Virus record (IMG/VR): IMGVR_UViG_3300018429_000064
Coordinates: 1-43,223 of that record
Length of the DNA: 43,223 nucleotides
Direction: 5' to 3' (one strand)
DNA from: a virus
Shown: one piece after another, positions 15,133 through 40,231 of the stretch
Layout: each line of letters starts with the position of its first letter
Numbering within the stretch: the stretch's first letter is position 1
Translations under genes and position numbers: made by a program
Notes under the pieces: generated by a model
What the model was told of the DNA's origin: nothing
Seen by the model: the letters and a program-made list of their open reading frames with translations, nothing else
Databases searched by the model: none

Positions 15133-15174
15133 ATGAGAGAGATTCTCATTTTTGAAAGGCTTTTGTTTCAATTA
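15133..15174 (-). repeat. Boundary element: TAATTGAAAC plus ATGAGA/TCTCAT inverted repeat
   Basis: In the short gap between structural genes, the minus strand reads TAATTGAAAC (15165-15174, containing the upstream TAA stop), then 15 bases later an inverted repeat ATGAGA-N5-TCTCAT (15133-15149), then the next start at 15130. The same pairing occurs at 27267-27306. Confidence 0.65.
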
Positions 15175-15807
15175 CAACCGCGCTGCATCCGATCGGCACG
15201 GCTTCAACACCATATGCGTGGTGCTGTAGGCCACGCCCAAGGGTGAGACATACCAGTTGGTGGTCATGTCGGTGGATTTCCCCAGCCCGCCCGAGTTCAA
15301 TCCCGACACAACCGGAATGTCCCCGATCGCCAAGGTGCAGCCAGGTTTAAAGAATGGGTCTTCCGTCACAACGCCAACGACCTGCCCCGGGCTGGCCGAG
15401 TTCTCCGCGATGCCGACCGCTTTATAAGTGGCATCCTCTTCGCTCACCGTGCTGCCGTTCGACCACGTTGTTGGAGTCGTGCCGGTCGCTTTGAAGACAA
15501 CGCCGGTCGCGTTCGAGGCCGCACCAACGTTTGTGAAATCGTCGCTGGCCGCATAGGTGGTGATGACATACCGCTTCCCGACAACAAGAGATCCTGACGT
15601 GGCGGGGGCGAGAGGCGTAGCGTCTGCCGGATAGAAAAGATCGTCGGTTCCCTGGAACACGGGCATTCCGGCCGTGATCGTGGCGCCGGCAATACACTGG
15701 TTCGGCACGGGAACGGAATCCCCTTGCAGGGTGAATCCGGGCATTTGAAAGCGTTTCGCGTGGGCGGAAGCCAGCACGTTTGCGGGTGCAACAGAGTAAT
15801 CAGCCAT
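15172..15807 (-). CDS. Capsid-cement-like structural protein with inserted module
   Basis: A 211-residue protein whose N- and C-terminal parts (AGATITAGMPVFQG ... AVGIAENSASPGQVVGVV ... LAIGDIPVVSG ... SPLGVAYSTTHMVLKP) resemble the beta-sandwich of phage capsid-cement (DUF2190-type) proteins that decorate heads. Residues ~70-120 are an extra module (GKRYVITTYAASDDFTNVGA then TGTTPTTWSNGS) nearly identical in pattern to one in the 506-residue neighbour. It is located among tail genes rather than beside the capsid gene, so it could instead decorate the tail. The function is inferred from fold resemblance only. Confidence 0.6.
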   Translation of the reverse strand: MADYSVAPANVLASAHAKRFQMPGFTLQGDSVPVPNQCIAGATITAGMPVFQGTDDLFYPADATPLAPATSGSLVVGKRYVITTYAASDDFTNVGAASNATGVVFKATGTTPTTWSNGSTVSEEDATYKAVGIAENSASPGQVVGVVTEDPFFKPGCTLAIGDIPVVSGLNSGGLGKSTDMTTNWYVSPLGVAYSTTHMVLKPCRSDAARL

Positions 15808-15839
15808 GGTGTTATTTCAGGTTTGGGGTTTCGAAAGCT

Positions 15840-16445
15840 TTATACGTTTTGCAGCAAGTCCGTGTCGGAATTCGCCAGACCGGATGCGGTCGCGTACCAA
15901 AAGAGGGTTGAACCGAGAAGGACGCTGACCGGGGCGGTGTAGACGAACCAGCCGCCGCTATCCTGCCGGCAATGAATGGTCGCGCCTCCGGTGGCGCAGG
16001 TCAGGGAAATGACCACCGTGCCGCCACCGATCACGCCGCTGTCAATCGCGTAAACGGGAATGGCGCAGGCGTCCGGCGTGTCAGCGGTGCTTCCTGTGAC
16101 CGCCTCGGCAATTTCGTTTCGCCACTGCTTCACTCGCTCCAGTTTATTTTCAATCACCCAAGCCTGGTACGCAGGGTCAGCGTAATACGCTTCGAACTCG
16201 GCCACCTTCAAGATGGCGGCGCGCGTTGTCATGCCTGAGAGAATTTCCTCACGCTGGCCTGGGATCGCGACCAGCCATCGATCCACTTCCAACCGCTCGA
16301 TGGAATTGAGCGTACCCGGATAGACGGGCGCTCCCGCTGGCGGGGTGGGTTCGGTGTGAATGAACCACGGTTCGGGTGGCGTCTGCTCGCGAATCAAGGC
16401 AGACGGCTTCGGGGCTATTTCGGTTGCGTAATTTTCAGCGGCCAT
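15840..16445 (-). CDS. Hypothetical tail protein with chitobiase-C-like beta domain
   Basis: A 201-residue protein. The N-terminal ~65 residues are proline-rich, 70-120 are helical (ERLEVDRWLVAIPGQREEIL ... AYYADPAYQAW) and the last ~70 residues ('GTVVISLTCATGGATIHCRQ' and 'VYTAPVSVLLGSTLFWYATA') resemble the beta-sandwich repeat found at the C-terminus of chitobiase-type enzymes, often used in adhesins. It probably sits at the tail tip or fibre base. No catalytic residues are recognised. Confidence 0.6.
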   Translation of the reverse strand: MAAENYATEIAPKPSALIREQTPPEPWFIHTEPTPPAGAPVYPGTLNSIERLEVDRWLVAIPGQREEILSGMTTRAAILKVAEFEAYYADPAYQAWVIENKLERVKQWRNEIAEAVTGSTADTPDACAIPVYAIDSGVIGGGTVVISLTCATGGATIHCRQDSGGWFVYTAPVSVLLGSTLFWYATASGLANSDTDLLQNV

Positions 16446-16454
16446 AAAAGGTTG

Positions 16455-16673
16455 TTACTCGATCACGATGGTTAGTCCGCCCTCTGTTCGATCAACCCGG
16501 CCATTTGTTATGCAAGGAGGCACACTTACTTGCGTGCCCTCTAGGTGTCCAACAACGGCCTTGGCGTGAACTTTGATTTTCAATTCGCCGATAGCGTTCA
16601 CCACGTCGATCAGAGCGTTGATCGTCTTCCAGTTCTGATCCACGGGTTGGTCGGCTGCAAGTTTTTGAATCAT
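16455..16673 (-). CDS. Small phage tail-region protein
   Basis: A 72-residue protein starting at MIQKLAADQP. This start gives an ATGA overlap with the upstream gene and is preferred over the longer frame from 16712. A helical N-terminal half (NWKTINALIDVVNAIGELKI) precedes a beta-rich C-terminus. No family is recognised. It belongs to the coupled tail operon. Confidence 0.65.
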   Translation of the reverse strand: MIQKLAADQPVDQNWKTINALIDVVNAIGELKIKVHAKAVVGHLEGTQVSVPPCITNGRVDRTEGGLTIVIE

Positions 16674-17677
16674 CCGTAAATTGTCTTTCGAACGTAAATC
16701 GCCCCCATCCACGGCTCGATTGAGCCTGCCAGAAAATGCACGTAATTATTTGTGTCCGGCTGACTTCCGCTGGCCGGATTGAAAGGGAACCCGTCGCTTG
16801 CTTCCACCCAGGTAAATATTCCGACTGACTGCACCGCTACATCTGGCACGCCTTGAAATAGGCCGATGGTCTGGCCCTGAAGGTAATAGTCATAGATGAC
16901 ATTGACCTGGATGGTCTTGGTCCTGGCCGCTATCGCTACCGCCGTAAGATTGCCGTCCGTCCACTGCTTAAACAGCTTCTTGTAGGTCTTGCTGTACGAT
17001 CCCGGCTCCTGTCGACTGGCGGGTTTGCGAGCCCAGACGCGATCCCACTCAACCATTCCGGCAATGCCTACATCTTGCAGTTGCGTTTCTTCCACCAGGT
17101 AGAACGGCCCGCCACCGTACGGACCCACCGTGTTAAGAGGGAGGGGATTCCAATAGGTGCGCTTCTGACAAAAGCGTTGCGTAATCACGAGAGAGTCAGT
17201 GCCAGCGGTAGCGATTGGACGTGAGAACCGGATAGCCCCGCAGGGAATTGCCGTGTCCCCAATGTTATCGAAAAAATGCAGCTTGTTTAACGGACTAAGA
17301 TGCAGCCGCTCCGCGAAGCTCACTTGCATTTTCGACACTTCGCCCTGTCGGCTAACATTCCCGATGTCGGTTACCCGGCAAGGAACTGAGATCGATGGAG
17401 GTATTATTAGATCGAATATGTCACCTATCGCGATGAAGGACGCTGCGGTTCTAAACTGCACCGTCATTGTGCCAACGCCTTTCACTGTGGAATAGGCCGA
17501 GGAGGTAATGGCCCCGAACTCGGTAGTTTCGTCCGGCCAATCGATACCTCGAAGCGCCTTGTTGAAAACAATCTCTTCCACGACCGACGCCCCCGCATTC
17601 GGGAATGTGATTACCTGCGTCCCATGAATGACCGACTGTCCGGCGGGTGCGTCTATTACTGTGGGTGGCTGGGGCAT
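16670..17677 (-). CDS. Tail protein paralogous to the tail-tube candidate
   Basis: A 335-residue protein whose first ~115 residues match the 124-residue protein at 19491-19865 almost position by position: MPQP.TVIDAPA.Q.V.HG.Q..TF..AG..V.EEI...K..R..D..DE. The remaining ~220 residues are unique and include aromatic-rich segments (QKRTYWNPLPLNTVGPYGGG). A tube-like domain plus extension after the tape measure gene suggests a distal tail or hub protein that continues the tube. It is separated from the tape measure stop by only 3 bases. Confidence 0.7.
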   Translation of the reverse strand: MPQPPTVIDAPAGQSVIHGTQVITFPNAGASVVEEIVFNKALRGIDWPDETTEFGAITSSAYSTVKGVGTMTVQFRTAASFIAIGDIFDLIIPPSISVPCRVTDIGNVSRQGEVSKMQVSFAERLHLSPLNKLHFFDNIGDTAIPCGAIRFSRPIATAGTDSLVITQRFCQKRTYWNPLPLNTVGPYGGGPFYLVEETQLQDVGIAGMVEWDRVWARKPASRQEPGSYSKTYKKLFKQWTDGNLTAVAIAARTKTIQVNVIYDYYLQGQTIGLFQGVPDVAVQSVGIFTWVEASDGFPFNPASGSQPDTNNYVHFLAGSIEPWMGAIYVRKTIYG

Positions 17678-17680
17678 GAC

Positions 17681-19469: not shown

Positions 19470-19490
19470 GGATCTCGCTAAGCCTCCCCG

Positions 19491-19865
19491 CTAATTCAAG
19501 TCCTCGGAGAACGCGATATTGATTTTGGTCGCTTCCGCCTGATTGAAACGCGGACCAACCTCAGTCACGATGAATGGAATGGCCGTGGCCCCGTCGGTGT
19601 CAAGAAAGCTGCCCGTCTCACCGAAAGCTATGCGCGTGGTGGAGGTTTTGAGTTGAATGGTCATCGAGCCCGTTCCCTTGGTCGTGACGTAAGCTGATTT
19701 GCTCGGCTTGCCCATCTCATCCATTTGATCCAAGGCGCGGCTGCCCTTGGTGTAGGTGATCTCCTCGGCCACCAACTGCCCAGCCGTCGAGAAGGTTACG
19801 AGTTGCGATCCGTGCCGGACGGTTTGCGAAGCCGGCGCATCAATGACGGTAGAGGGCTGTGGCAT
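19491..19865 (-). CDS. Tail tube-like protein
   Basis: A 124-residue beta-rich protein, small and acidic at the C-terminus, positioned between the tail-terminator candidate and the chaperone-like gene, as major tail proteins are. It shares its whole length with the N-terminal domain of the 335-residue protein at 16670. The start ATG is preceded by the boundary motif AAGAATTGAAACACC, part of a 65-base gap that holds several inverted repeats. The name rests on gene order plus paralogy. Confidence 0.65.
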   Translation of the reverse strand: MPQPSTVIDAPASQTVRHGSQLVTFSTAGQLVAEEITYTKGSRALDQMDEMGKPSKSAYVTTKGTGSMTIQLKTSTTRIAFGETGSFLDTDGATAIPFIVTEVGPRFNQAEATKINIAFSEDLN

Positions 19866-19934
19866 GGTGTTTCAATTCTTAAGGGTTCGTCTCAATTATG
19901 CAACTGAAATTCTCATGGATGAGAAGATTCTCAT
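19866..19934 (-). repeat. Boundary element with overlapping TTCTCAT/ATGAGAA inverted repeats
   Basis: On the plus strand TTCTCAT-GG-ATGAGAA (19910-19925) is immediately followed, sharing its right arm, by ATGAGAA-GA-TTCTCAT (19919-19934). The motif GTTTCAATTC lies at 19869-19878, four bases from the tube gene start codon. Here the order of the two blocks is reversed relative to the other copies. Confidence 0.65.
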
Positions 19935-20395
19935 TTCGGCCAAGCATCGTCTCGAACGTGGAACGTGATATCGGCCGTGATCTCCGACCAGTCATTCGTG
20001 CCGTCAACGCCGCGGGTCAGCCCAGTCTCTCTCAATTCTGCGACCGCGTGGAACGGCAAGCGCGCCTCGGTGAAGCTGTTCCGGTAACGTTGTATCTCAA
20101 TCCGCACCCGTCCGGTCATCACGCGCTGTTTGTCGCTGTTCACGCCGCGCATCGTCACCACGCGGGTAATCAGGCTCCCTTTCCACCAAGACGGGAGCAA
20201 CTCGCCATTGTACGGGTAAAGCTGGCCCAGCGGAACGACGCTGTTCAACTGCACTTCGATGTAGGGCTCCTTTTGCGCGTCCCGGTCTTGGTCGGAGAAT
20301 TCAAGATACACCGCGTGACCCTTCCCCTTCAGGATGGCTGCCCAGGCGTCCTCTACCCGCTCGTACTCAAAAAGCTGTTCGAGTGTTCCAATCAT
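19931..20395 (-). CDS. Tail completion/terminator-like protein
   Basis: A 154-residue mixed alpha/beta protein. It begins with a helix (TLEQLFEYERVEDAWAAIL) followed by strands (AVYLEFSDQDR ... PYIEVQLNSV ... VRIEIQRYRNS ... ITADITFHVR), the general layout of tail terminator or minor tail proteins that cap the tube near the head. No definite family match. It is ATGA-coupled to the upstream neck protein gene, and a boundary repeat overlaps its last codon. Confidence 0.6.
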   Translation of the reverse strand: MIGTLEQLFEYERVEDAWAAILKGKGHAVYLEFSDQDRDAQKEPYIEVQLNSVVPLGQLYPYNGELLPSWWKGSLITRVVTMRGVNSDKQRVMTGRVRIEIQRYRNSFTEARLPFHAVAELRETGLTRGVDGTNDWSEITADITFHVRDDAWPK

Positions 20396-21144: not shown

Positions 21145-21146
21145 AG

Positions 21147-21479: not shown

Positions 21480-21491
21480 GTCGCGACGCTC

Positions 21492-21647: not shown

Positions 21648-21649
21648 GG

Positions 21650-22861: not shown

Positions 22862-24925
22862 TTACGAGCGGGCCGGGAATCCGGTAAATTCCAGGAAGCA
22901 GGCGGGGCGGTAGGTTGCCAACAGCAGCCGGTGCTCGGCGCGGAGCATGATGAGGTTGCGGCGGAAGTCGTCTTCGTTCGCGTTGGTCATTTCGATCCGC
23001 ATTCCTTCGCGCATGAAATACTGCGCTCCGAGCTTCCAGCAGCCGGCCACCGGACGCCCGTATTGCACCGCAGTTGTTTTCACGACCGGCTTGCCCCAGA
23101 AAGTGTACATCTCCATGAACACCCCGTAACCATAAGGGATGTAGAACGGTCCACCCATTAGGTAGCGCCCCTGGCTGTCTTTCAGGAGGCTAGCCGTTTC
23201 CCAATCGTAGGGATGGAAGGCGTAGCCATCCGGTTCGAAAAGTGATCCAACTTCGATGTCGGTCAGTCCTTTCTTCAGGGAATCAGCGACCGTTCGATCA
23301 TCAGTTGTCACGATGGCGCGCGTTTGCACGCCTGCCGTCGTGAAGATGCCCTTCAAATTGTTACCGAGTCCGTCTCCGTAGAGGATCTGCTGTTCGGTTC
23401 GGTTGTCCACCATGAACGGGAGCCGATTGTCGATATAGCTCCGGGCGGCGGGGAAATCAGCCATGAATTCATCCGGCACTTTGGTTGTGACCGCGACTTT
23501 CTTGACGCCTTCGGTTTGAGTCGCCAAATCAGGTTCCCAATTTGGTTTCAATCCGCGTTCCCCAACCATGCCGGCCATCGGCATTCCCGGCGCGTTACCG
23601 CTGGCCGCAGGAACCGCCACTCCGTCCACTGTGCCAAAACTGTTCTCACGGGGATAGATGAGAGCCGCCGCGCCGATCGTGCCTGGCGCCAGCATGTCCA
23701 TGATTGTCAACCGCTGCATTCCCAAGCCGAGAACCTGCGGCTGAATCTGCACGTTGACGGCCGCTAGATCCGAGGAAGTGAATCCAGCGCGCTCTGCCAT
23801 TGCGACCTTGCCGCGAATGCCGAGAATGGCGATATCGGTTTCAATCGCAATATCTCGGCGTTGTCCGGTCAATTTTCCGCGCGCTTGGAAATCTTTCGAG
23901 TTCACGAACTGCGCGCCGATGCTTTCGCGTTTTGAGCCATTCTTGTCGCGCTCTCCGACCACTTCAATCTTGCCGTCGCTGTCCGGGGTCTGGATTGCCT
24001 TCACTTCCGAAAAAGTTCCGGTCATCACAGCGTCTTTGAAGTCCTGCACACTTTTCCCTTCCTTGATGTGCTGTGCGGCGACTTCGGCTGTATCGATCTT
24101 CCGGCCGCCAAGTCCTTTTGCGGCAAAATGTTTCACGAGATCGTTGATGCCATTGACTCGATTGCGCTCAATCTCAGCGCCTCTCTGTTGGCCGCGTTGT
24201 TCGGCGTTTGTGACTTCGGCGGAGGTGGTGCCGGTCGTTGCGTTATCGCCTTTGTCGGCCTCGAACAGGAAGTTGCGCTTTTTCATAGGAGTTTCGCTTT
24301 TGTGAGAATTTTCTCGCTCTTGAGAATCGTTATTCTCATTTCTGCGAGTGTCGTCAAGAGATTTTTTTTCTATTTCAACTGTTTTTTCTTCCTGCTCGAA
24401 AGCCCGGCCGACTCCAACGGTGAAATCCGCGGGGATAGAAACCAGGCTGCATTCGTACAGAGTCCACTTCGTTGCCAGGTAGGTTTCCTCCTTTTCGTCA
24501 ACCTCGAATTTATCGACGTCGTAACCAATCGAGCATTCGGTAAGAATCCCATCGAGAAGATCCTTGAGCATCTGCACGCCGGCTTCGCTCTGCGAGAATT
24601 TTAGGTCCACGTAAAGTTTCCCGTCCCGCAGTTGCGGGTTCGACACTTTGCCAATGAGCGTATCTCGGTCGTGGTTGAAGAGAAGCGGCGACGCTCCGCT
24701 GGTCACGCGGGAGAGATTCACCGCGCCTGGTTCGTGCGAGAGAATCTCCGTTCCGTAGTATCGGTCGTGCGGTTCGTCACTGGAGACGCTGACGTTTTTG
24801 ACGACGCGGTTTGATTCGTCAATCTCGGCTCGGACGTTCCCGGTGCCGGGTGCGTCTTCAATTTGAATTCTGGCTGTTCGAAACTGCGGCGGGAGTTTCT
24901 GACCGTTGATAAGTTTCTTTTTCAT
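22862..24925 (-). CDS. Prohead protease fused to HK97-fold major capsid protein
   Basis: A 687-residue fusion. Residues ~15-180 are a U35-type prohead serine protease with the catalytic His (LLFNHDRDTLIGKV, H85), the catalytic Ser (GILTECSIGYDV, S132) and the typical 'LYECSLVSIPADF' strand. Residues ~180-215 are a polar Asn/Glu/Ser linker. From ~216 (PMKKRNFLFEAD) comes a scaffolding-like helical region and then the HK97 capsid core to the C-terminus (VPDEFMADFPAARSYIDNRL; AFHPYDWETASLLKDSQGRY). Self-cleavage would release the shell protein. The linker DNA carries a TGAGAAT/ATTCTCA inverted repeat like those found between other genes. It is ATGA-coupled to the portal gene. Confidence 0.88.
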   Translation of the reverse strand: MKKKLINGQKLPPQFRTARIQIEDAPGTGNVRAEIDESNRVVKNVSVSSDEPHDRYYGTEILSHEPGAVNLSRVTSGASPLLFNHDRDTLIGKVSNPQLRDGKLYVDLKFSQSEAGVQMLKDLLDGILTECSIGYDVDKFEVDEKEETYLATKWTLYECSLVSIPADFTVGVGRAFEQEEKTVEIEKKSLDDTRRNENNDSQERENSHKSETPMKKRNFLFEADKGDNATTGTTSAEVTNAEQRGQQRGAEIERNRVNGINDLVKHFAAKGLGGRKIDTAEVAAQHIKEGKSVQDFKDAVMTGTFSEVKAIQTPDSDGKIEVVGERDKNGSKRESIGAQFVNSKDFQARGKLTGQRRDIAIETDIAILGIRGKVAMAERAGFTSSDLAAVNVQIQPQVLGLGMQRLTIMDMLAPGTIGAAALIYPRENSFGTVDGVAVPAASGNAPGMPMAGMVGERGLKPNWEPDLATQTEGVKKVAVTTKVPDEFMADFPAARSYIDNRLPFMVDNRTEQQILYGDGLGNNLKGIFTTAGVQTRAIVTTDDRTVADSLKKGLTDIEVGSLFEPDGYAFHPYDWETASLLKDSQGRYLMGGPFYIPYGYGVFMEMYTFWGKPVVKTTAVQYGRPVAGCWKLGAQYFMREGMRIEMTNANEDDFRRNLIMLRAEHRLLLATYRPACFLEFTGFPARS
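24321..24338. repeat. TGAGAAT-CGTT-ATTCTCA inverted repeat in the protease-capsid linker
   Basis: A perfect inverted repeat with 7-base arms and 4-base centre, inside the coding sequence for the linker. A second, shorter GAGAA-TT-TTCTC repeat lies at 24304-24315, and a degraded TTTCAA motif is near 24372. It is the same repeat type as in the intergenic gaps at 15133, 19910 and 27267. Confidence 0.7.
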
Positions 24926-26703
24926 GCGCGTGCGCCAGCTCGCGGCCGGCTTTTCTTTTTCGGGGTTTTCTTTGGGGGCTTTTCTTCTTCGCCCTCATCG
25001 TCTTCCGGTTCCTCTTCGAATTCCTCAGTGCCAGAGCTGTCGGCGTTGCTGACATACAGCCCGGCCTCTTCCATTAGGATTTTTTCGATGGCCTGTTCCT
25101 CGATGATCTCTTCGAAGTCTTTTCCGTTCTCATTGCAGATGCGAGTTCGGCTATCGAGCATAGAATCGATCGCTTGCTGGTCTGCCTTTGCATCTTTCAA
25201 AGGATCGACCCAGGGCCATCGGCGGCCTTGGAATTGCGGCTGATTGAATTTCTCAAACTTGGTCAACGGCAACGGAATCGCGCCATTGGCCAAGGCCATC
25301 TCAAGCCACGCGGAGAAAATCGGAATCTCTGCCGTCTCGATGTCGAACTCCTGGGTCAACGTCCACAGCTCGCGGATATCGAGCGACCCGGCCCTCATCG
25401 AAGAGTAATTCACGCCCTCAAGGTCGCCGGCCATGATGTTGTATTGGTCGCCCGCTCCTGCGCAGACTTCGCGAATCATCTCTTTCTTGAATGCCGGAAA
25501 GTTGCCGCTCGGATGCTTCGGGTCGTGCGCTTTGGCTTCGTAGCCGTACGGGAGCGTTTTCCACATCGCGGGCTCAACTGAATCAGTCAGGCGCTTCCCG
25601 TTTTCACTGATCTTTTGGATATACTCAGCCAGGTCTTCTGGCACTACCCCCGGCACAGTTGCCTGATAGTGACCGCCCTTGCACGCCTCCGCTCGGGCGC
25701 TGATGACTTCCGCTTCGCTGTATTTGTCGAGGTGCCGCAGTTTCGACATGATTGAAGCGATCCACGGCGCCCCGCGACCGCTCTCCGAATCCTCGAACTG
25801 GCAATAGTGGATCATGTCCGGCGCTTCCACGCGCTCGCAATTACTGATGCCGCCGCGAGATGCTGGCATGGAATAGTGCCGCCAATCGTTCGGTTGCCGA
25901 TTTATCACGTAATACGCGACCGCCGCGCCCCACTTGTCGTATTCGATCCCCATTTTGACGTGGCGACCGTTGTCCAAAAGCTGGTTGATGCTGTGATCGA
26001 CCCATTCCGATGAAATCAGTTGGATAGCGAAACCGAAGTTGTTATCGATCGGTGCGGACTTGTCGCCCTTGCGCCAACGCAGAAGTCGAATGAACACGTC
26101 CCCGTCGCGGGCGCACATAATGAGGCGCTGATGGCGGGTTTGCTGGTAGGAGTGCCGCCGGCCAACCGTGCAATTCTGCTTCAACTGCCAGCGCTTCCAG
26201 GCTCGCTCAATCAGGTTGTTCGCGTAGGCGTCAGGCTGACCCGTTTTGATTACCGCCTTGGTGCGGGTGCTGCCGTTCTGGCCGGTCGTTTCTTCCACGA
26301 AGAATTCACGGGTTCGCAGTTTTATGCCGTGCTTCTCGGCACGCTCGACCAATTCTTTCCGGGAACGCCGTTTCGCTTCCAGCCATGATTTTTCCTCCGC
26401 GGCATACACCACGCGGTCGGCTTCCTCCTTGATCTTCATTTGCAAGATAATGCCGGTGGCGCCGAAAACGTTGGCGATGAGATCCACGCGGAATTTCCGC
26501 ATGTAGGGGTTCATTTTGAACAAGTCGCGGCTGTACTGAACGAGAAGCGACCAGTTCGACTGCAGGTCGGCGTCATCGGTGATGCCGGACATGATCCAGT
26601 CCGTTTGCTGCCTGCCGACTGAGGAGATTTCCGAGAACCCGCGAGTGAGGTTGCCCAGCGCCCACTTGCGGATCTTGAATTTGAGACGGTCGAGAACTTT
26701 CAT
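24922..26703 (-). CDS. Portal protein, lambda gpB family
   Basis: A 593-residue portal protein, the dodecameric ring through which DNA enters the head. Family features include the N-terminal helical region (~40-70, SNWSLLVQYSRDLFKMNPYM), the clip/stem portion with 'AWKRWQLKQNC' and 'RDGDVFIRLLRW', and the diagnostic C-terminal block near 500-540, 'GRRWPWVDPLKDAKADQQAI' then DSRTRICNENGKDFEEI, which parallels lambda gpB. An acidic then lysine-rich tail follows (EEEPEDDEGEEE, KPPKKTPKKKSRP). It is ATGA-coupled to the gpW-like gene upstream and the capsid gene downstream, the lambda order. Confidence 0.93.
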   Translation of the reverse strand: MKVLDRLKFKIRKWALGNLTRGFSEISSVGRQQTDWIMSGITDDADLQSNWSLLVQYSRDLFKMNPYMRKFRVDLIANVFGATGIILQMKIKEEADRVVYAAEEKSWLEAKRRSRKELVERAEKHGIKLRTREFFVEETTGQNGSTRTKAVIKTGQPDAYANNLIERAWKRWQLKQNCTVGRRHSYQQTRHQRLIMCARDGDVFIRLLRWRKGDKSAPIDNNFGFAIQLISSEWVDHSINQLLDNGRHVKMGIEYDKWGAAVAYYVINRQPNDWRHYSMPASRGGISNCERVEAPDMIHYCQFEDSESGRGAPWIASIMSKLRHLDKYSEAEVISARAEACKGGHYQATVPGVVPEDLAEYIQKISENGKRLTDSVEPAMWKTLPYGYEAKAHDPKHPSGNFPAFKKEMIREVCAGAGDQYNIMAGDLEGVNYSSMRAGSLDIRELWTLTQEFDIETAEIPIFSAWLEMALANGAIPLPLTKFEKFNQPQFQGRRWPWVDPLKDAKADQQAIDSMLDSRTRICNENGKDFEEIIEEQAIEKILMEEAGLYVSNADSSGTEEFEEEPEDDEGEEEKPPKKTPKKKSRPRAGARA

Positions 26704-27254
26704 CGGCCAAAGACGGTGTAGATGTTTCGGGAACGTGACCGGCCAAGCGCCTGGTCTACCAGCGCTTGTTCGCGGTCGACGATCAGTTGTTGCCGCCCGA
26801 TGGCGTCTTGCAGTTCATCGAGATTCTTCTTCGTGAAGCTTTGCCCGTTGAAATTGACAGCCTGATTCACACCTGAGGCGAGGGTATGCAGCGCCGTTTT
26901 CATCGCCGCCAGTGTTTCCTGCGCCTGGGTCAATGCGAGTTCCGCCGTGGGGTCTGCGACCACCTGCACGGTTCCCATGTCGAGCGATGCCCGCTCAGTC
27001 GTGGCCGTCTCGGTGTAAACGAACGTCACAGAGTATTCGCCGGGTGAGATCGCGGCGGTTTGCGCGGCGGTGATTACGAGATCAAAGGAATTGTTGGAAC
27101 CGGCGGACGCGGCGAAGTTTTTCAGCGCAGGCCCGTTCAACACGACCGCCAAACCCCAATCACTGGACGGGTAATCGCCATCCGAGATGTTTAAGCGAAC
27201 GGTGTTGCCCGCGATGATCGCAGCGGGGAACTGAGTCAGGGTGTCAACGGCCAT
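26700..27254 (-). CDS. gpW-like head-joining protein with N-terminal beta domain
   Basis: A 184-residue protein between terminase and portal, where lambda carries W. The last ~75 residues ('LAAMKTALHTLASGVNQAVN', then FNGQSFTKKNLDELQDAI ... SRNIYTVFGR) follow the gpW plan: helix, beta turn with a 'V...G.....' hairpin, helix, basic tail. The first ~105 residues are an extra Ig-like beta sandwich (ISDGDYPSSDWGLAVVLNG ... PGEYSVTFVYTETA) not present in lambda gpW. gpW-type proteins stabilise filled heads and prepare tail attachment. The start is 12 bases downstream of a boundary inverted repeat. Confidence 0.72.
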   Translation of the reverse strand: MAVDTLTQFPAAIIAGNTVRLNISDGDYPSSDWGLAVVLNGPALKNFAASAGSNNSFDLVITAAQTAAISPGEYSVTFVYTETATTERASLDMGTVQVVADPTAELALTQAQETLAAMKTALHTLASGVNQAVNFNGQSFTKKNLDELQDAIGRQQLIVDREQALVDQALGRSRSRNIYTVFGR

Positions 27255-27266: not shown

Positions 27267-27306
27267 TTCTCATTTTTGAGAAACAGCGCAAGCCTTGTTT
27301 CAATTC
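27267..27306 (-). repeat. Boundary element: GAATTGAAAC plus TTCTCA-TTTT-TGAGAA
   Basis: In the gap between the MT-A70 gene and the gpW-like gene, the minus strand carries GAATTGAAAC (27297-27306, its TGA being the methyltransferase stop), followed 14 bases later by a perfect 6-base-arm inverted repeat with a 4-base loop (27267-27282). Confidence 0.68.
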
Positions 27307-27878
27307 TGCGACAATTCCATCTCTACGTCTTTCTCGACCTCATTGCCCCACACGTCCCACCCCGCGCGTTTCGGGAACAGTGGCGTGTAAGGTCGTGCAA
27401 AAAGCTCAAGGTATGGCCCCGGTGACACTTTCTCGACCAATCTCATAAACTCGTCAGGCTTCGCACTGTGAATCTTTCCGTTGGCGTAGGGTTGCTTCCA
27501 AAAGCTCACCCCCGCCGGGAGCTCGTTTTTTGGCCACGGCAAACCGCCGCGTGATGCCAATAAAACGGGTTCGTGTCCGTTACCATTGAAACCGCCCATG
27601 CCTGCGTTGCGGAGGCCCCAGATAATCTCCCCGCACGGCTCAAAGCCCCATGCCCGCGCCACTGCCACTGCGATGCCCTCGCGGAAATAGCGGCGGGTTG
27701 CCCAAAGATACAGATGCGCGCCTTCCGCCGACAATTCACCGACAGGGAGCCTTGTGATTTCCTCGACTGACATGAATCCGTAAGGCACGACCGTCGCTCG
27801 CTTTCGACGTCCGCCAGCGCCCATCCTCGCCGTGATTGGCCACGGTGGATCAGCTACGATTGCTCGGTATTCCTTCAC
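27300..27878 (-). CDS. MT-A70 family DNA adenine methyltransferase
   Basis: A 192-residue N6-adenine methyltransferase. The catalytic DPPW motif is at residues ~10-13 (YRAIVADPPWPI). Downstream blocks are GAHLYLWATRRY, WGFEPCGEIIWGLRNAGMGG and 'HSAKPDEFMRLVEKVSPGPY', ending with the NPPS-like 'LELFARPYTPLFPKRAGWDV'. The GTG start at 27878 is chosen because it overlaps the terminase stop by GTGA and begins just before the first conserved strand. An ATG at 27905 would overlap the terminase by 31 bases. Its insertion between terminase and gpW is unusual. The likely role is modifying phage DNA against host restriction. Confidence 0.88.
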   Translation of the reverse strand: MKEYRAIVADPPWPITARMGAGGRRKRATVVPYGFMSVEEITRLPVGELSAEGAHLYLWATRRYFREGIAVAVARAWGFEPCGEIIWGLRNAGMGGFNGNGHEPVLLASRGGLPWPKNELPAGVSFWKQPYANGKIHSAKPDEFMRLVEKVSPGPYLELFARPYTPLFPKRAGWDVWGNEVEKDVEMELSQN

Positions 27879-29875
27879 ACCCTGAATCCGCGTACCGGCC
27901 CCCATCCACTGCTTTCCCGTTGACGGGAGGGGGCGGGCGGTGCCTTGGCGGGTTCCTTCGCTTCCTCGGCTCTCGCAATCAATTCCTTTTCAATCGCGTC
28001 GAAGTTGCGTGGATGAACCCTGAGTGCAGCCAAACAGCCAACCTCGATGTCCAGCGCCTCGTTCCGCAGCAATTTCGGGTTGACGTATTTCCGAATCTCA
28101 ACCCCGCGCTCGTACGTGATCGTGACCGTCTCGGCGGTGAGTTGTTGGAAATATTCTTCGCCGTACTGCTTGTTGAAATGGATGATGCCTTCGCGGGGGT
28201 CATCCTCGGCCGGTTCCATCCGTAGACGCTCGTACACGCGATCCTTGGCTTCCCACGTGCCGATGTAGTGGCCTTTTAAATTCTTCGCCACGGTCGACAT
28301 CCCGCGGGTGATGATCGGGTGTCCGTGTTTGCCGACGCCTTTTGATGCGCGGACGTGGCCGGTCAATCCTGGGACGGGATCAGACCTCAGTCTTTGGAAA
28401 AAGCGGTAGACATCTTCCGCGTAGGCCCCGCCGTCGACCAACCCCATGGAAAGCTGAATCGTGCAGCCCAGCGCGTGCTCGAACTTCCGGGCCAACTCGA
28501 ACCGCAACGCCTGCCACACTTCCCGGTCGCGAATATGGCCGTCCAACACGACATGATCCATCCCCCACGACTCTTCATTGCGCCCCCAGACTCGCCAGCC
28601 GACCTCGAGCCGGTTCAACTGGCAATCGACGAACGCGGTCAGGACCAGGCCCGTTTCAGGCACCGTCAGCCCGTAATCTTCCCGGTGGTCGAAGATCGGC
28701 TTCCATGCCGGCGGCGGTTCGCCTTCCAACTCTGGGTCCCAGAGCTCGGCCGCCATCTCCTGCATCCAAACCCGCAAAGCCGGGATGCTGGTCTTGGCTG
28801 ACTCCCCTTTGGCAACAAATTCATGCAGCTTGGTCTTGAACCCTTTCGCGGTCGGGAGCAGGGACGTAAACCCGTTCCGCCAATAGCTCCGAACGGTCGG
28901 GTCCTTCCCCTTCGCCTTGTGGTAGTGCAGCAGGATGTTCGATTCCTGTTCCTCAGTGAGTCCGGCAGTGGAGAACCAGCGCCCGCCCGCAGCCATCTTC
29001 CTCCATTCCGCTTCGTTGTGCGCGTAATCGCATTTTACGCAGTTGCAGGTTGCCCGGTCCATCCGCCCCGCCGGCCACTTGAAATGTCCGTAGCGAATAA
29101 CCTGCAGGTGATGGCAGGCCGCGCATTCACAGAACCACTTTCGCTTGTCGCCCTGGTCGTAGGCTTCGTGGATGTTTGAATTGTAAACAGTCTCTCCCGT
29201 TGCCGGGTCGATGGTCGGCGCCAATGTCCCGGTCGATTCCAGAACGATAATCGCGTCGGCAAAGCCAGTGGTCCGCCCAAACGCCTTGTAGATCGCTTCA
29301 GGATCCAGCGCATCGAGTTCGTGTAGCAATAAAACCTTTACGGCCGTGCCGCGGAACTTCGTGAGACTGCCGGCGCTCACGATTCGAAGCCAACCGCCCT
29401 TGAACTTCTTGAATGACACTGTTCGACCGCTGTCCCGGCTCTTTTTCTCGACAAAATACCCAGCAAGACACGCTTCGATCATCGGCTCGATGTCACCGAT
29501 CGAGAAACGGTCGACGTCATCCTTGGTCGGATGCACGGAATAGATGTTCCCTGGGTCATCCGTTACTGTCCGCCCGATGATGTTGCAGCAGACCCCGAGC
29601 GTCTTGCCGTCGCGGATTGCGAACCAAAGGACGATCTTGTTTACCGCCTGGTCGTCCGCGTCGTCCATCGGATCCACGCAATGCGGCATCACCGCGTGCC
29701 GGTACCGGATTGGCTCGCCTGATGACAACGGGGACTGCCCAGGCGCCAGAATCCTCTCCTCGCTCGCCCAAACGGAGGGCTTTCGTTTCGGTTTGGAAAG
29801 GATATTCTCTGCCCACACCGCCCAGATCAGCGCCCGGGCCCCTGCGGTCATTGCGGCCTGAATCTCAGCCTTCAA
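27875..29875 (-). CDS. Terminase large subunit, lambda gpA family
   Basis: A 666-residue packaging motor and nuclease. The ATPase part carries a Walker A-like AIRDGKTLGV (~86-95) and a Walker B-position segment VLLLHELDAL (181-190), in which the usual Asp before the catalytic Glu is His185. Two zinc-binding CxxC pairs follow (CECAACHHLQ, CNCVKCDY), as in gpA proteins. The nuclease domain starts at 'VLTAFVDCQLNRLEVGWRVW' and continues through 'LVDGGAYAEDVYRFFQRLRS'. The start codon is TTG at 29875, overlapping the stop of a 23-codon ORF by TTGA. The small subunit gene is far upstream at 33673, separated by accessory genes. Confidence 0.93.
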   Translation of the reverse strand: MKAEIQAAMTAGARALIWAVWAENILSKPKRKPSVWASEERILAPGQSPLSSGEPIRYRHAVMPHCVDPMDDADDQAVNKIVLWFAIRDGKTLGVCCNIIGRTVTDDPGNIYSVHPTKDDVDRFSIGDIEPMIEACLAGYFVEKKSRDSGRTVSFKKFKGGWLRIVSAGSLTKFRGTAVKVLLLHELDALDPEAIYKAFGRTTGFADAIIVLESTGTLAPTIDPATGETVYNSNIHEAYDQGDKRKWFCECAACHHLQVIRYGHFKWPAGRMDRATCNCVKCDYAHNEAEWRKMAAGGRWFSTAGLTEEQESNILLHYHKAKGKDPTVRSYWRNGFTSLLPTAKGFKTKLHEFVAKGESAKTSIPALRVWMQEMAAELWDPELEGEPPPAWKPIFDHREDYGLTVPETGLVLTAFVDCQLNRLEVGWRVWGRNEESWGMDHVVLDGHIRDREVWQALRFELARKFEHALGCTIQLSMGLVDGGAYAEDVYRFFQRLRSDPVPGLTGHVRASKGVGKHGHPIITRGMSTVAKNLKGHYIGTWEAKDRVYERLRMEPAEDDPREGIIHFNKQYGEEYFQQLTAETVTITYERGVEIRKYVNPKLLRNEALDIEVGCLAALRVHPRNFDAIEKELIARAEEAKEPAKAPPAPSRQRESSGWGPVRGFRV

Positions 29876-34604: not shown

Positions 34605-34607
34605 ACC

Positions 34608-34921: not shown

Positions 34922-35595
34922 TTGCGCCCCCTCCCGTTCTGCCACTTCCGCCGATACACAAGATGGGCCTTCTCGAGCGGCGCCTTCCATTTCGCGTTAA
35001 TCTCGGCCGCGTGTTCGCTCAACCAGTTGGAAACGTCGATCATCTTCTGAAGCGCGGACTGCTCGTTATCAAGCTTGGTCACGCTCTTTGATTTCCGAGG
35101 CTTGCCGGGGTGCGCTTCACGGATCGTCCCGCGCAGTTCCTTCACGGTCATGGCCTCTTCCTCGGCTTTCGCCAGGAATTTGTCCTGCTCATCAGCCGGC
35201 AGCCTCGCCACCGCTTCATGGTGAGCGAGCGATAGATTCGCATGGCGCCGGTTGGGAGCGATCTTGCCCGCTATCCACTGCCAGTTTTGCAGGGTCTTAA
35301 TCCCGATCGTCCGCATATAGTCCCGGGTCGCATCGATCACGTCTGCGTAGCGCTCACCGAACTTCTCTTCGCCGAACCGCAGAGCGTCCCCGAGCATCAT
35401 GGCGGCCTGGGCGCTCCGCTTGCCCGTGTTCTCGTAAAGTCGGCAGAGATCCTCGGTGTATCGCTTCCACTCTGACTCGGGGGTTTCGTCTTTGAACACC
35501 ATCCCCGTGGCGCTCACGATCCCCCATTCGAACTCTCCCTGGTTTAGAATGCCTGAGATGTCGAGCGTGCCTGATTCTTCTGATGGTGGTTTCAT
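34918..35595 (-). CDS. LmbU/ParB-like putative DNA-binding protein
   Basis: A 225-residue protein starting at MKPPSEESG (ATGA overlap with the J-domain gene; the longer frame from 35763 would overlap that gene extensively). The core, roughly 'AMMLGDALRFGEEKFGERYA ... GIKTLQNWQWIAGKIAPNRR ... NLSLAHHEAVARLPADEQDK ... AMTVKELRGTIRE', follows the LmbU-type helix-turn-helix pattern known in regulators and phage proteins. The basic C-terminus ends in KWQNGRGRK. It may act in replication or regulation near the helicase and J-domain protein. This is inference. Confidence 0.65.
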   Translation of the reverse strand: MKPPSEESGTLDISGILNQGEFEWGIVSATGMVFKDETPESEWKRYTEDLCRLYENTGKRSAQAAMMLGDALRFGEEKFGERYADVIDATRDYMRTIGIKTLQNWQWIAGKIAPNRRHANLSLAHHEAVARLPADEQDKFLAKAEEEAMTVKELRGTIREAHPGKPRKSKSVTKLDNEQSALQKMIDVSNWLSEHAAEINAKWKAPLEKAHLVYRRKWQNGRGRK

Positions 35596-36212
35596 GCTGC
35601 GTGTTTCATCGTCGCAAGGGCGATGTCCTTTGCTGAGGTTATGGAAATAAATTGTTCGTGCGTGCCGCCGTTGTCGGGGTGGGCTTCGCGGGCCTTTCGG
35701 CGGTATGCGTCCAGAATCACTTGCTCTGGCGAGTTCGGAGGAATGTCGAGCGTCTCCCAGCAATCAGGCCCGCTCTTTGGCGGAAGTGCCGCAAACCCCG
35801 AAAACGCCTTGTCGAGCAGTTGAGAACTGCCCCACCGTTCGATTCCACGCATCGCCTCAATGGTTTTCGATATGGCCCGCATGTTCTTCCAGACTTCGTT
35901 GTATTTGTCGCAGGCGAAACAAACTGCCTGCTTTTTCCTAGTGAAATAGACGGCCACACCGGGATCTGTTGGCCGCGGCCCGCTGGCGCTCGGGTAGCCG
36001 TCTCGACGCAATGGCAGATTCGTGGAAATGACTATGCTGCTGAGGATATGAGTTCGTGCCTGTGGTCCGAGGGCAATTTGATTAATCTCGTGTACCAACT
36101 CTCTACGTATTGAATCAAAGGTTCCTTTGAATGCGCCACTCTCTCTTGCGTGCGGGGCCGTGCGGGGCCAGCTAATCGGCCAGTGTAAGGGGGTAGCGAG
36201 TTGATCTCCCAT
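35592..36212 (-). CDS. Phage J-domain (DnaJ-like) protein
   Basis: A 206-residue protein with a C-terminal J-domain fragment: CWETLDIPPNSPEQVILDAY, then RRKAREAHPDNGG with the essential HPD at 178-180. J-domains stimulate DnaK ATPase. The N-terminal ~150 residues have a conserved-looking segment 'VISTNLPLRRDGYP', 'GVAVYFTRKKQAVCFACDKY' and 'MRAISKTIEAMRGIERWGSS'. The start ATG is 0 bases after the motif GGGAGGAATTGAAAC, a strong Shine-Dalgarno embedded in a boundary repeat. It may bring host DnaK to replication complexes. Confidence 0.8.
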   Translation of the reverse strand: MGDQLATPLHWPISWPRTAPHARESGAFKGTFDSIRRELVHEINQIALGPQARTHILSSIVISTNLPLRRDGYPSASGPRPTDPGVAVYFTRKKQAVCFACDKYNEVWKNMRAISKTIEAMRGIERWGSSQLLDKAFSGFAALPPKSGPDCWETLDIPPNSPEQVILDAYRRKAREAHPDNGGTHEQFISITSAKDIALATMKHAA

Positions 36213-36236
36213 GTTTCAATTCCTCCCGTTGACGGG
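36213..36236 (-). repeat. Boundary element: CCCGTCAACGGG followed by GAATTGAAAC
   Basis: The minus strand reads CCCGTCAACGGG (36225-36236), AGG, then AATTGAAAC immediately before the J-domain ATG. The first part encodes PVNGRN and the stop of the upstream gene. It is the best match to the copy at 6838-6862. Confidence 0.7.
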
Positions 36237-36506
36237 AAAGCGGGCGTTCGCCTTCTTGTATTCCCTTCGGTAGCGCTGCTGAATTTCGTGGTCGAGCATC
36301 GCAATTCGAATCGTCATTTTCTCAGCCCAGCCGTGCAGCTTCATCGCCACCGATCCCCGAGGCTCGAATGTTCGCTGCATCACCCATTCAGACACGCGCA
36401 CGGGGTGCTCTCCGATGTCCTCGGCCAATGCCTTCACGGTGACGATCTTCGCCTTGATGATGGCGGTGCAGCGGTTCAAGAGGGATGTGAGGGTGTCGGC
36501 GCTCAT
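36216..36506 (-). CDS. Small helix-turn-helix protein
   Basis: A 96-residue protein starting at MSADTLTSLL (ATGA overlap with the upstream membrane gene; the longer frame from 36587 is rejected). Residues ~20-40 form a helix-turn-helix (VTVKALAEDIGEHPVRVSEW) followed by helical, basic sequence. A Cro/XRE-like DNA-binding function is plausible. The stop codon lies within the GAATTGAAAC boundary motif. Confidence 0.65.
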   Translation of the reverse strand: MSADTLTSLLNRCTAIIKAKIVTVKALAEDIGEHPVRVSEWVMQRTFEPRGSVAMKLHGWAEKMTIRIAMLDHEIQQRYRREYKKANARFPVNGRN

Positions 36507-36664
36507 GTTAATCCGTACAGCTTGGCGACGATTGACGTGCCCAGCATCAACATTGAGGCGGATGCGTAGGCGGCAAAACGGGGCCAATCGTCACAGATTA
36601 ACAGCCGCATAAAGCCGAAGATGAAAAACCCCAGCGGCATTAGGACGTGGATAAAGTATCTCAT
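36503..36664 (-). CDS. 53-residue membrane protein
   Basis: An ORF with ATGA overlaps at both ends (36661-36664 and 36503-36506). It encodes two likely transmembrane segments: FIHVLMPLGFFIFGFMRLLI, and FAAYASASMLMLGTSIVAKL after a short DDWPR loop. No family is recognised. It forms a pair with the next small membrane gene. Confidence 0.65.
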   Translation of the reverse strand: MRYFIHVLMPLGFFIFGFMRLLICDDWPRFAAYASASMLMLGTSIVAKLYGLT

Positions 36665-36840
36665 CTCCACTCCACCGCACTGTGACGCGAAGCGCGGTAT
36701 TCCTTAAATTCTGTCGCAATATCATGCTGCCGGCCTGGACTCCACCCGAGCCTGATTAAGAGAAGCGCGGCCAGTATCAGCCCGAGTATGGGCAGGATTA
36801 CTACCAACTGCCAGCGGAGCCATTTTTGGAGAGGTGTCAT
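36661..36840 (-). CDS. 59-residue single-pass membrane protein
   Basis: The start is placed at MTPLQKWLRW (36840, ATGA overlap with the upstream gene). One strong transmembrane helix (WQLVVILPILGLILAALLLI) is followed by a polar ~30-residue cytoplasmic or periplasmic tail. The function is unknown. Two adjacent small membrane proteins in the early region could affect host membrane functions or superinfection, but this is speculation. Confidence 0.65.
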   Translation of the reverse strand: MTPLQKWLRWQLVVILPILGLILAALLLIRLGWSPGRQHDIATEFKEYRASRHSAVEWR

Positions 36841-37253: not shown

Positions 37254-37308
37254 AATTCGCGAGATTAACGGTTTTCCGTTTCAAGTCAACAAGATTCTGT
37301 ATCAATTC
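37254..37308 (-). promoter_or_regulatory. Gap after the helicase with GAATTGATAC motif, inverted repeat and possible promoter
   Basis: On the minus strand, GAATTGATAC (37299-37308, containing the helicase stop) is followed by a TTGACT sequence, a perfect inverted repeat AACGG-AAAA-CCGTT (37267-37280) and TAATCT. TTGACT and TAATCT are 16 bases apart, compatible with a weak sigma70-like promoter with the hairpin in the spacer. This is the same motif-plus-inverted-repeat design as the other boundary elements. Confidence 0.45.
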
Positions 37309-38597: not shown

Positions 38598-38934
38598 ACG
38601 TGTTCGTCGGTTTTGGCGTCCCATTGACGGGAGTGCAGTTGCGTTTCCAATTCCTCATCGCCGCCTTGAAATCACGCATCGGCGCCGACGCCGTTCGCCC
38701 CATCTTCCACCCCCTGGCCTTGAAATGGTCGAAGAACTTTTCGGGCTCACCTGAGTTCAACCCGATCTCTTCTGCGTAGACCATGACGTCGTGGAGGCTC
38801 GGGCCTTTCGCTGCTTCCTTGCGGGCCTGTAGGCGCTGGATCTCTCCCAGGCATTCGCGGATTGCGTCCGACTTTTTTCCCTGCGTGCCAGATAAGGCAA
38901 GGGTTTCGAGTTCGGCTATGCGGTCGAGTTTCAT
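38584..38934 (-). CDS. Replication-module protein, helicase-loader-like C-terminus
   Basis: A 116-residue protein starting at MKLDRIAELE (ATGA overlap with the methyltransferase gene). The second half, 'VMVYAEEIGLNSGEPEKFFD' then HFKARGWKMGRTA and APMRDFKAAMRNWKRN, matches the 'FYDHYESNGWK.G...M.DWKAA...W' pattern at the C-terminus of phage replication organiser and loader proteins. The N-terminal helix is a likely coiled coil. It precedes dnaB, so a role in recruiting or loading the helicase is likely. No AAA+ motif is present. Confidence 0.72.
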   Translation of the reverse strand: MKLDRIAELETLALSGTQGKKSDAIRECLGEIQRLQARKEAAKGPSLHDVMVYAEEIGLNSGEPEKFFDHFKARGWKMGRTASAPMRDFKAAMRNWKRNCTPVNGTPKPTNTYGVG

Positions 38935-39500
38935 TGGAGTTCGGAGCGCTTCTCGAATACTGAAAAGCATCGAATGCGGTTGTTGAATCCGCAGAGGATT
39001 CCGATTGCCGCGATAAATTTGGCGTTCTTCGGCTGTGCTGGCAGTGAATAATGGATCAGCCCGACCCGACAACCTACGGCAAGCGCAGCCAGCGCATTCC
39101 TAACGAGCGTGTTTGGAGTCGGGTAGACGGCTGCTCCCGCTGCATACTTGTCCGCGTCGGCCTCTGAATAAGGAGGGTCAATTAGAATGGCTCTCCACGG
39201 CAGACAGTCCCATTTATTCTGCCTTCTCGGAAACGGATCGCGTGCATCCTGCAAAAAATTCGGGTCGGTTGCCGGATCAATGTCCAGCGTCATGTCTGAA
39301 CTCTCCCCGAAGCCTGCCGGATAAGGGTAATGACGGGCCATCCCTCCGCAGACATGCAAGACTGGCTCGTTTATTGAGGCACCGAGAAGCACGCGGGCAC
39401 GTTCAGGGAAGCCACCAAGATAGGCTCCGTAATATTTTCGCCCACCTTTCAATTTCGCCCGGGCCAGGAACCAAATGTCAGTGATGGGTCGGTAACTCAC
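38931..39500 (-). CDS. DNA methyltransferase-like protein with DPPY motif
   Basis: A 189-residue protein with a GTG start (GGAGCAAGC upstream acts as Shine-Dalgarno) beginning SYRPITDIWFLARAKLKGG. The SAM-binding region is probably 'EPVLHVCGGMARHYPY' and the catalytic motif is IDPPYSEADADKY (DPPY at 108-111). The class resembles phage-encoded adenine or cytosine-N4 methyltransferases. It starts by a GTGA overlap with the Lar-like gene, making an anti-restriction pair. The ATG at 39545 gives a longer but less convincing N-terminus. Confidence 0.78.
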   Translation of the reverse strand: MSYRPITDIWFLARAKLKGGRKYYGAYLGGFPERARVLLGASINEPVLHVCGGMARHYPYPAGFGESSDMTLDIDPATDPNFLQDARDPFPRRQNKWDCLPWRAILIDPPYSEADADKYAAGAAVYPTPNTLVRNALAALAVGCRVGLIHYSLPAQPKNAKFIAAIGILCGFNNRIRCFSVFEKRSELQ

Positions 39501-39734
39501 GCTTGCTCCTTTACCTTTTTCGGAAACGGTTTGCGCCAGTTCCAAAGTTTCACCGCAAATTCGCGGTCGTAATAGCTCAGGCTCGGATTCACGCAGCCTT
39601 CAGTCCATGCACGCGATCATCAGCGCCTTGTTCTCATCGCCCACATCCATCAGAATCGGACGCTCGCAGCAAAAGGGACACGTCTTCACTTCCACCCCTT
39701 TGACTCTGAACGTACTCTGTTTTCGCCCCGCCAT
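39497..39734 (-). pseudogene. Lar-like zinc protein gene broken by one extra base
   Basis: From ATG 39734 one frame encodes a zinc-ribbon start (VKTCPFCCERPILMDVGDEN) and stops at TGA 39600 right after 'IACMD'. The +1 frame continues the expected domain (EGC VNPSLSYYDREFAVKLWNW RKPFPKK) and ends at 39497, overlapping the methyltransferase GTG by GTGA. Together they give CPFC ... C-x4-C ... AVKLWNWR, like the Lar restriction-alleviation family (CPFC...AIEAWNRR). The span is 238 bases, 3n+1, so one base is extra near 39600. Frameshift mutation, sequencing error or +1 frameshifting at GAC-TGA are all possible. Confidence 0.62.
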
Positions 39735-39761
39735 ATTCCCTGATTCCTTTCTTCCCCGCCG

Positions 39762-39995
39762 TTAAAGTACCCGTCGCTCCTCCCTGACGCGAAGCGCCAG
39801 AAAAGCAGTGCACAGAAGAAGATAGCTAGGTGTTTTCGCGATTTTCACTCGCCGTTCACCCTCCGCAGAGTCCGGTTCCATCCTGTTCCGAGTCGTCAGC
39901 CCTCCCTCGGCGGGATCATACCTCATAGCGAGTGTCTCGTTCTCGCCGTCGCAAGGCCCTGTGCGCCTGCATTGCGTTCCCCGGTCGGCCGACAT
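39762..39995 (-). CDS. Hypothetical 77-residue protein
   Basis: An ORF with a strong GGGAGGA Shine-Dalgarno eight bases before its ATG. The product is Arg-rich with a Cys pair near the N-terminus (CRRTGPC) and a short hydrophobic stretch late (YLLLCTAFLALRV). No family is recognised. A GTG at residue 50, with GGAGG before it, could alternatively start a 28-residue membrane peptide. It lies downstream of a structured non-coding stretch. Confidence 0.45.
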   Translation of the reverse strand: MSADRGTQCRRTGPCDGENETLAMRYDPAEGGLTTRNRMEPDSAEGERRVKIAKTPSYLLLCTAFLALRVREERRVL

Positions 39996-40029
39996 ACTCG
40001 ATTCCTCCCGGTGATTACGAGCTAGTTCT

Positions 40030-40190
40030 ATGGCAAAAAGATGCCGCTCGGGGTCAGAAAGGTTTGCAGAACGACGAACCCGAAAGCACGGACTTCAACA
40101 CCCGTGCTCTCTCCCGAGCGGCGATGAAAGTGTAAGGCTTGTTCCATATTCTGCAATCCGGTTCTGACACCGGCACTAGCGTTTCTCATT
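40030..40190 (-). ncRNA. Candidate structured RNA or leader with three-way junction and U-run
   Basis: No convincing gene lies in this ~160-base stretch. On the minus strand a 10-base stem GCCGCTCGGG/CCCGAGCGGC (40113-40122 with 40043-40052) encloses two hairpins: AGCACGG/CCGTGCT (40102-40108 with 40085-40091) and a 6-base stem (40075-40080 with 40061-40066, one G-U pair). The closing stem is followed by ATCTTTTTG, terminator-like. A promoter-like sequence lies upstream at 40190-40220. It could be a small phage RNA, a leader for the 77-residue ORF, or a replication-origin structure. Confidence 0.4.
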
Positions 40191-40231
40191 TATGCGAATT
40201 CAGTTCGCATGTCAATTCTGTTTCAATTCTT
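40186..40231 (-). promoter_or_regulatory. Boundary element with promoter-like TTGACA and TGCGAA inverted repeat
   Basis: On the minus strand GAATTGAAAC (40222-40231, coding the last residues of the upstream gene) is followed by TTGACA, then TGCGAA-N5-TTCGCA (40195-40211, perfect arms), CATAAA and ATGAGAA. TTGACA to CATAAA is 15 bases, a little short but plausible for a sigma70-type promoter, with the inverted repeat placed as an operator in the spacer. The predicted transcript would cover the structured stretch 40030-40190. Confidence 0.5.

Follow-up and report, generated by a model that had tools for sequence, protein, structure and literature searches.

Does a short asymmetric sequence recurring in a single orientation at the gene boundaries of a temperate phage mark a dispersed regulatory site, and if so, how might such a site act? 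The question is raised by the 43,223-base IMG/VR virus record IMGVR_UViG_3300018429_000064, analysed over its whole length (hereafter the window), a temperate tailed phage with an integrase and two ParB-like genes on the + strand at its left, and with capsid, portal, terminase, helicase, RusA and lysis genes on the - strand, where most of its genes lie. Phages of actinobacteria provide the best-known cases of dispersed regulator sites with a fixed orientation. A terminase search in IMG/VR supplied two relatives, G1 (IMGVR_UViG_3300044812_000041; 71% terminase identity to the window) and G2 (IMGVR_UViG_3300044810_000026; 76%), both syntenic with the window over much of the genome; megablast against phage records gave no match, and scans of genome contigs found no relative. 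In the window and G2, and apparently in G1, the sequence opens at the integrase gene and closes at the start of a common - strand gene, an arrangement that looks like trimming at provirus gene borders; the segment 42879-43223 has 99% protein identity to G2, though most other genes are at 30-80%. Promoters throughout are predicted from sequence only.

A strand-specific element at gene boundaries

The sequence GTTTCAATT occurs exactly seven times in the window, on the + strand only (5224, 6838, 15165, 19869, 27297, 36213 and 40220), and reads as AATTGAAAC on the - strand, the gene strand; AATTGAAAC has no copy on the non-gene strand. The original prediction of seven copies in one orientation is thereby confirmed, with six coordinates correct and the last, given as 40222, found at 40220. 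Seven copies compare with 0.43 expected on both strands together, a count reached in 0 of 100 dinucleotide shuffles, and with 0.30 expected on the gene strand alone (order-2 Markov model; maximum 3 in 300 runs). Chance or base composition as the origin of the repeat, a concern raised by the selection bias of a 9-mer chosen by eye after reading, was tested and is excluded, the counts never being reached in shuffles, the other strand lacking the element and the relatives carrying the same one. A CRISPR repeat or relic was also rejected, as the copies are kilobases apart with unrelated flanks and form no regular repeat-spacer array; inspection by eye found no -10 at the right distance for the element to serve as a -35 box.

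Six of the seven copies, originally described as exactly at gene stops or starts, lie within about 10 bases of an ORF stop or start codon, the 5224 copy lies inside a gene, as had been described, and 14 of the 20 ATTGMRAC-type elements in the window fall outside genes (P=1e-4). Members beyond those first listed include ATTGAAAC copies at 41274, 6788 and 5318, ATTGAGAC/ATTGCGAC at 19896 and 15131, and several one-base variants, mostly on the same strand as the element (Table 1).

Table 1. Element copies and palindromic sites located in the window.
Feature	Position	Strand	Context
GAATTGAAAC copy	5224..5233	-	within ORF 4889-5419
GGATTGAAAC, further copy	5311..5320	-	same ORF 4889-5419, 87 bp upstream of 5224 copy
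ATTGAAAC copy	6781..6788	-	upstream of putative holin gene (ATG 6717)
GAATTGAAAC	6838..6847	-	after CCCG-TTGG-CGGG-TA-GG; ATG of 38-codon ORF 7 nt on; lysis region
CTCTCA-TAAT-TGCGACA, operator-like; right half is element in ATTGCGACA form	15123..15139	-	overlaps possible -10 CATAAT
Operator-like site, 2 mismatches	15143..15158	-	19 bp from neighbour
TAATTGAAAC	15165..15174	-	overlaps TAA stop of 15172-15807; upstream of possible promoter for 13610-15118
GAATTGAAAC	19869..19878	-	3 nt before ATG of 19491-19865
ATTGAGACG, relatives' form of element	19888..19896	-	20 bp upstream of 19876
Strict operator TTCTCA-TCCA-TGAGAA	19910..19925	-	exact motif match
Weaker second operator copy	19928-19943	-	next to strict operator 19910..19925
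Three-operator array, one mismatch each; starts 24293, 24311, 24333	24293..24348	-	inside protease-capsid gene
Strict operator TTCTCA-AAAA-TGAGAA	27267..27282	-	in possible promoter of head-tail joining gene 26700-27254
GTCGCA-GAAT-TGAAAC, two-armed site; right half is A-type element	27297..27312	-	contains TGA of MT-A70 gene 27300-27905
GAATTGAAAC	36213..36222	-	between Shine-Dalgarno-like GGGAGG and abutting ATG of 35592-36212; holds TGA of 36216-36587
Variant GAATTGATAC	37299..37308	-	end of DnaB gene; AACGG-AAAA-CCGTT present
Strict operator TTCGCA-TAAA-TGAGAA	40183..40198	-	overlaps possible -10 of early promoter, TTGACA upstream
GAATTGAAAC	40220..40229	-	8 nt before stop of 70-codon ORF; 4 nt upstream of early-promoter TTGACA
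GTATTGAAAC	41267..41276	-	downstream of DUF3799 gene

The relatives carry the element with one base changed, as AATTG(A/C)GAC, in about 20 copies each on the lytic gene strand, often in the arrangement [Shine-Dalgarno]-ATTGAGAC-ATG, with [GGGA]-ATTGAGAC-ATG as the tightest form; the window has just one copy abutting ATG. An unsupervised k-mer count returned TGTCTCAAT/GTCTCAATT as the top or tied-top 9-mer in G1 and G2, on one strand, and ATTGMGAY occurs on the gene strand 21 (G1) and 23 (G2) times, against about 3 expected each and 3 each on the other strand. Enrichment outside called genes is observed in all three genomes (P 1e-4 to 3e-5). Aligned, the element reads ATTG(A/C)(G/A)AC, the sixth position being G in the relatives and A in the window (outside genes, 34 G:2 A in the relatives vs 4 G:10 A in the window; P=5e-6), and because this G-to-A change is seen in ATG-abutting and promoter-side window copies alike, it suggests that one trans-acting factor reads both.

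Several positions are also conserved: all three phages have sites at the starts of 19491-19865 and 26700-27254 and in the region of 13610-15118; the start of the major capsid protein (MCP) gene in G1 and G2 and an early promoter in the window and G2 add positions shared by two. The ATTGAGACG copy at 19888..19896 matches the position of its counterparts in the orthologous promoters of both relatives, the G2 orthologue of the 36213 site reads GGGATTGAGATATG, and ATTGMGACATG follows the DUF3799 gene in G1 and G2. Most ATG-abutting positions differ among the three related genomes available, and the element is absent from distant terminase relatives.

Palindromic sites and their relation to the element

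Inverted repeats had been predicted near the copies at 15165, 19869, 27297 and 40220; they are present, as is the AACGG-AAAA-CCGTT reported with the 37299 variant, and exact matches to TTCKCA-N4-TGMGAA stand at 19910, 27267 and 40183. These repeats constitute a second motif, TTC(T/G)CA-N4-TG(A/C)GAA, with 12 strict palindromes in the three genomes (3, 2 and 7) against 0.02 expected per genome. Among spacers of 0-14, only 4 recurs, the one site elsewhere having a spacer of 1, and with two mismatches allowed, neighbouring sites less than 60 bp apart lie at 17-23 bp in 12 of 12 pairs; 18 simulated genomes had no site pairs at 15-25 bp. Palindromes recur at orthologous structural-gene promoters in the relatives, the 40183 site has a G2 counterpart at 41191, and the + strand integrase/ParB region holds no strict operator in the window, G1 or G2. 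The variable base differs independently between the two arms, with 5 of 14 pairs broken and no compensatory change, and the palindromes are on this ground taken as DNA operators rather than RNA hairpins. Temperate phage repressor operators of the 434/P22 type comprise six-base half-sites 4 bp apart, in neighbouring arrays over promoters; the 12 strict sites share the two 6-bp half-sites and fixed 4-bp spacer, and differ in lying over many lytic promoters rather than in one immunity region, with no adjacent repressor gene found.

Element and palindrome have a common core, TG(A/C)GA, with the same A/C freedom (TGAGA/TGCGA). A left arm (at least 4 of 6 matches at a 10-bp offset) accompanies 12 of the 53 elements not abutting ATG, including the window A-type site at 27303, against 2.8 expected, whereas 2 of 16 ATG-abutting copies have one, against 0.9 expected and thus without excess; in several promoters the left arm coincides with a possible -35 (TTGTCA, TTGCCA and similar). 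The excess on one side and its absence on the other point to promoter-side elements being operator halves; ATG-abutting copies may be half-sites standing alone, or the same word put to a derived use. As the window palindromes keep TGAGAA and its single elements have changed to TGAAAC, two factors are also possible.

In the window, a three-operator array lies inside the protease-capsid gene; in G1 and G2, arrays precede the MCP start instead. An in-frame ATG at 24286 (codon 214) follows the array by 7 nt at the protease/capsid boundary, the phrog_80 protease match covering 57-246, and a capsid-only protein might have an internal promoter and start here. An array at the start of the capsid domain in a fused protease-capsid gene predicts such an internal promoter.

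Another dispersed palindrome, CCCG-N4-CGGG (often TTTCCCGTTGACGGGAAA), has 12, 4 and about 22 copies in the window, G1 and G2 respectively (e.g. window 36225, 6851 and 27916), inside and between genes and sometimes directly before a Shine-Dalgarno sequence; because it occurs on both strands and inside genes, it is regarded as a separate repeat.

Proposed regulation of the lytic strand and its alternatives

From the motifs, the strand they occupy, how they are spaced and arrayed, the positions that are conserved and a base change coordinated across copies between relatives, we infer a protein, its binding, the sign of regulation and the use of one factor for palindromes and single elements. The reading we favour, at a probability of about 0.55, is that GAATTGAAAC is the half-site of a dispersed operator system whose regulator probably silences the lytic strand as a whole. 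A putative sequence-specific DNA-binding regulator would recognise TTC(T/G)CA-N4-TG(A/C)GAA, frequently arrayed at intervals of 17-23 bp, in or beside lytic promoters of the early replication gene, the major head protein, head-tail joining and tail genes, and the same regulator would also read single or degenerate half-sites, ATTG(A/C)(G/A)AC, oriented with transcription at gene starts and stops within lytic operons. Promoter-overlapping sites would block initiation, and single oriented sites may hinder elongation or the next gene's expression in the manner of stoperators. Two observations tilt the reading towards repression: several sites overlie the core promoter (27267, 40183 and G2 41191), and the integrase/ParB region is free of strict operators.

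A known parallel in layout is the stoperator system of L5 and other cluster A mycobacteriophages, in which more than about 20 short asymmetric sites per genome, in one orientation to transcription, occupy promoters and short intergenic gaps (PMC9283540). The likeness is in dispersed asymmetric sites with one orientation to transcription, as the strand counts in three genomes attest; the element here is found in gene gaps and at places predicted to be promoters. The sequences are unrelated, the cluster A repressor binds asymmetric sites as a monomer (PMC9283540) whereas a palindromic form also exists here, many copies here touch the start codon, and the repressor is putative.

Start-associated sequences (SAS) of cluster K phages, GGGATAGGAGCCC, offer a second comparison, with a 13-bp consensus containing AGGAG/Shine-Dalgarno, lying 3-7 bp from ATG and confined to non-structural genes (PMC3203893). 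Features shared with SAS/ESAS are an asymmetric repeat just upstream of ATG in one orientation, sometimes with an upstream stop codon or a nearby inverted repeat, and an inverted-repeat consensus that varies from relative to relative and gives no support to RNA pairing; proximity to start codons is marked here, TTGMRAYATG having 11 copies in each of G1 and G2 against 0.2 expected and the window sites at 36213, 19869 and 6838 lying 0-7 nt away. The consensus is different, ATTG(A/C)(G/A)AC rather than GGGATAGGAGCCC, the element precedes head and tail genes, and ATTGMRAC sits between Shine-Dalgarno and ATG, abutting ATG in G1 and G2.

These similarities bear on an alternative to which we give limited credence, that ATTGMGAC between Shine-Dalgarno and ATG is a binding site in mRNA for a protein or small RNA, of phage or host origin, which adjusts lytic translation, as proposed for cluster K SAS. 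TTGAGAC and TTGCGAC are indeed among the commonest pre-ATG heptamers on the gene strand of G1 and G2, and a suitably spaced GGGA/GGAG-like Shine-Dalgarno precedes most copies; however, the element, with its base change likewise present in the window, is also found in promoter-like settings 19-46 nt before ATG and forms one arm of palindromic sites that do not act like RNA stems, and the window has a single abutting copy. A more far-reaching possibility, also given limited credence, is that one regulator would use a palindromic operator at promoters and a half-site in the ribosome-binding region of lytic genes, controlling initiation and internal-start expression; its specificity would have drifted by a single base from one relative to another, and many sites would have changed along with it.

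Similarly limited credence goes to a scheme of late-promoter activation, with palindromes, and the element in the -35/-10 spacer, binding a phage activator that turns structural genes on. Several promoters suit an activator, one or two operators ending 5-8 bp before a possible -35 (TTGNNA), the usual activator place (e.g. G1 25987, G2 25014, window 19865, and loci L078/L083 of other viral contigs), and many sites precede structural genes; other sites, however, lie in the spacer or over the -10 (the three core-promoter sites above and contig G011), as is typical of repression, and the scheme does not account for the single elements at internal gene starts and stops. Short homology linkers for module exchange, or the neutral spread of a short repeat, would place sites at gene junctions and allow the turnover of ATG-abutting positions between relatives, but are very improbable given that copies share 8-10 bp only, with unrelated flanks, and that neither idea predicts the strand bias, the regular spacing, a palindromic motif in parallel or the conservation of promoter positions.

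Taken as a whole, the original prediction fares well in part. Its comparison with stoperator and start-associated repeats of unrelated sequence holds, in strand specificity, enrichment outside genes and positions recurring in two relatives, and so does its promoter/operator option, the nearby inverted repeats being separate palindromic operators; the RNA route is disfavoured for those repeats, and a recombination linker has gained no positive support. Equal counts within genes and on both strands, or a lack of conservation, had been named as evidence against it, and the results run the other way.

Candidates for the regulator were sought among the phage proteins. ParB1 and ParB2, DNA-binding non-structural proteins conserved in all three phages, are candidates, against which stand the strict operators of G011, where no ParB is detectable, and a 10-bp half-site distance that does not fit parS. 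The two ParB-family genes are adjacent in each phage (window 2889-4693; G1 7810-9799; G2 6410-8360), the second matching Spo0J/Noc structures and the first no solved structure; no ParA was recognised among the proteins scanned. The HTH protein 36216-36506 seems unlikely as a shared regulator, having an orthologue in G2 and no significant match in G1; contig ends may be trimmed. For host LexA, no published motif of such form was found in the literature. A divergent pair of small ribbon-helix-helix-like genes, probably the lysis-lysogeny switch, lies between the lytic and integrase/ParB strands (window 1905-2380; G1 7210-7666; G2 4976-5705), the G2 pair being paralogous (3e-15). Its gap holds other palindromes, which differ between phages (TGCGCATATGCGCA in the window vs TGTGGCACAA in G2), and the pair was set aside as the regulator.

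Wider occurrence

Thirteen stretches of viral contigs contain the array TGAGAA-N2-TTCTCA-N4-TGAGAA. Six loci (L074, L075, L078, L080, L083 and L084) have at least two strict operators exactly 18 bp apart, several of them in gaps beside head, tail or terminase genes, and in G011 (IMGVR_UViG_3300032288_002108) a CTTGC box is followed by three strict operators, of which two lie 10-14 nt before ATG. In unrelated phages, some operator arrays (L074, L075, L084) have TGCCA-N4-TGGCA-like inverted repeats on their flanks. Matches at L062, L063, L076, L077, L079, L081 and L082 look like chance, being single and, where inspected, mostly in coding sequence. The window has few or no detectable proteins in common with G011 or G008, the two contigs compared, which suggests that the operator outlives protein similarity or that the factor is the host's.

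The phages described here carry a clearly conserved and differently built dispersed-site system. Because one base has changed in parallel between relatives, the idea that a regulator co-evolves with its many sites becomes testable, and TTCTCA-N4-TGAGAA in 18-bp tandem arrays may be the signature of an unnamed regulator, of phage or host, that is widespread.
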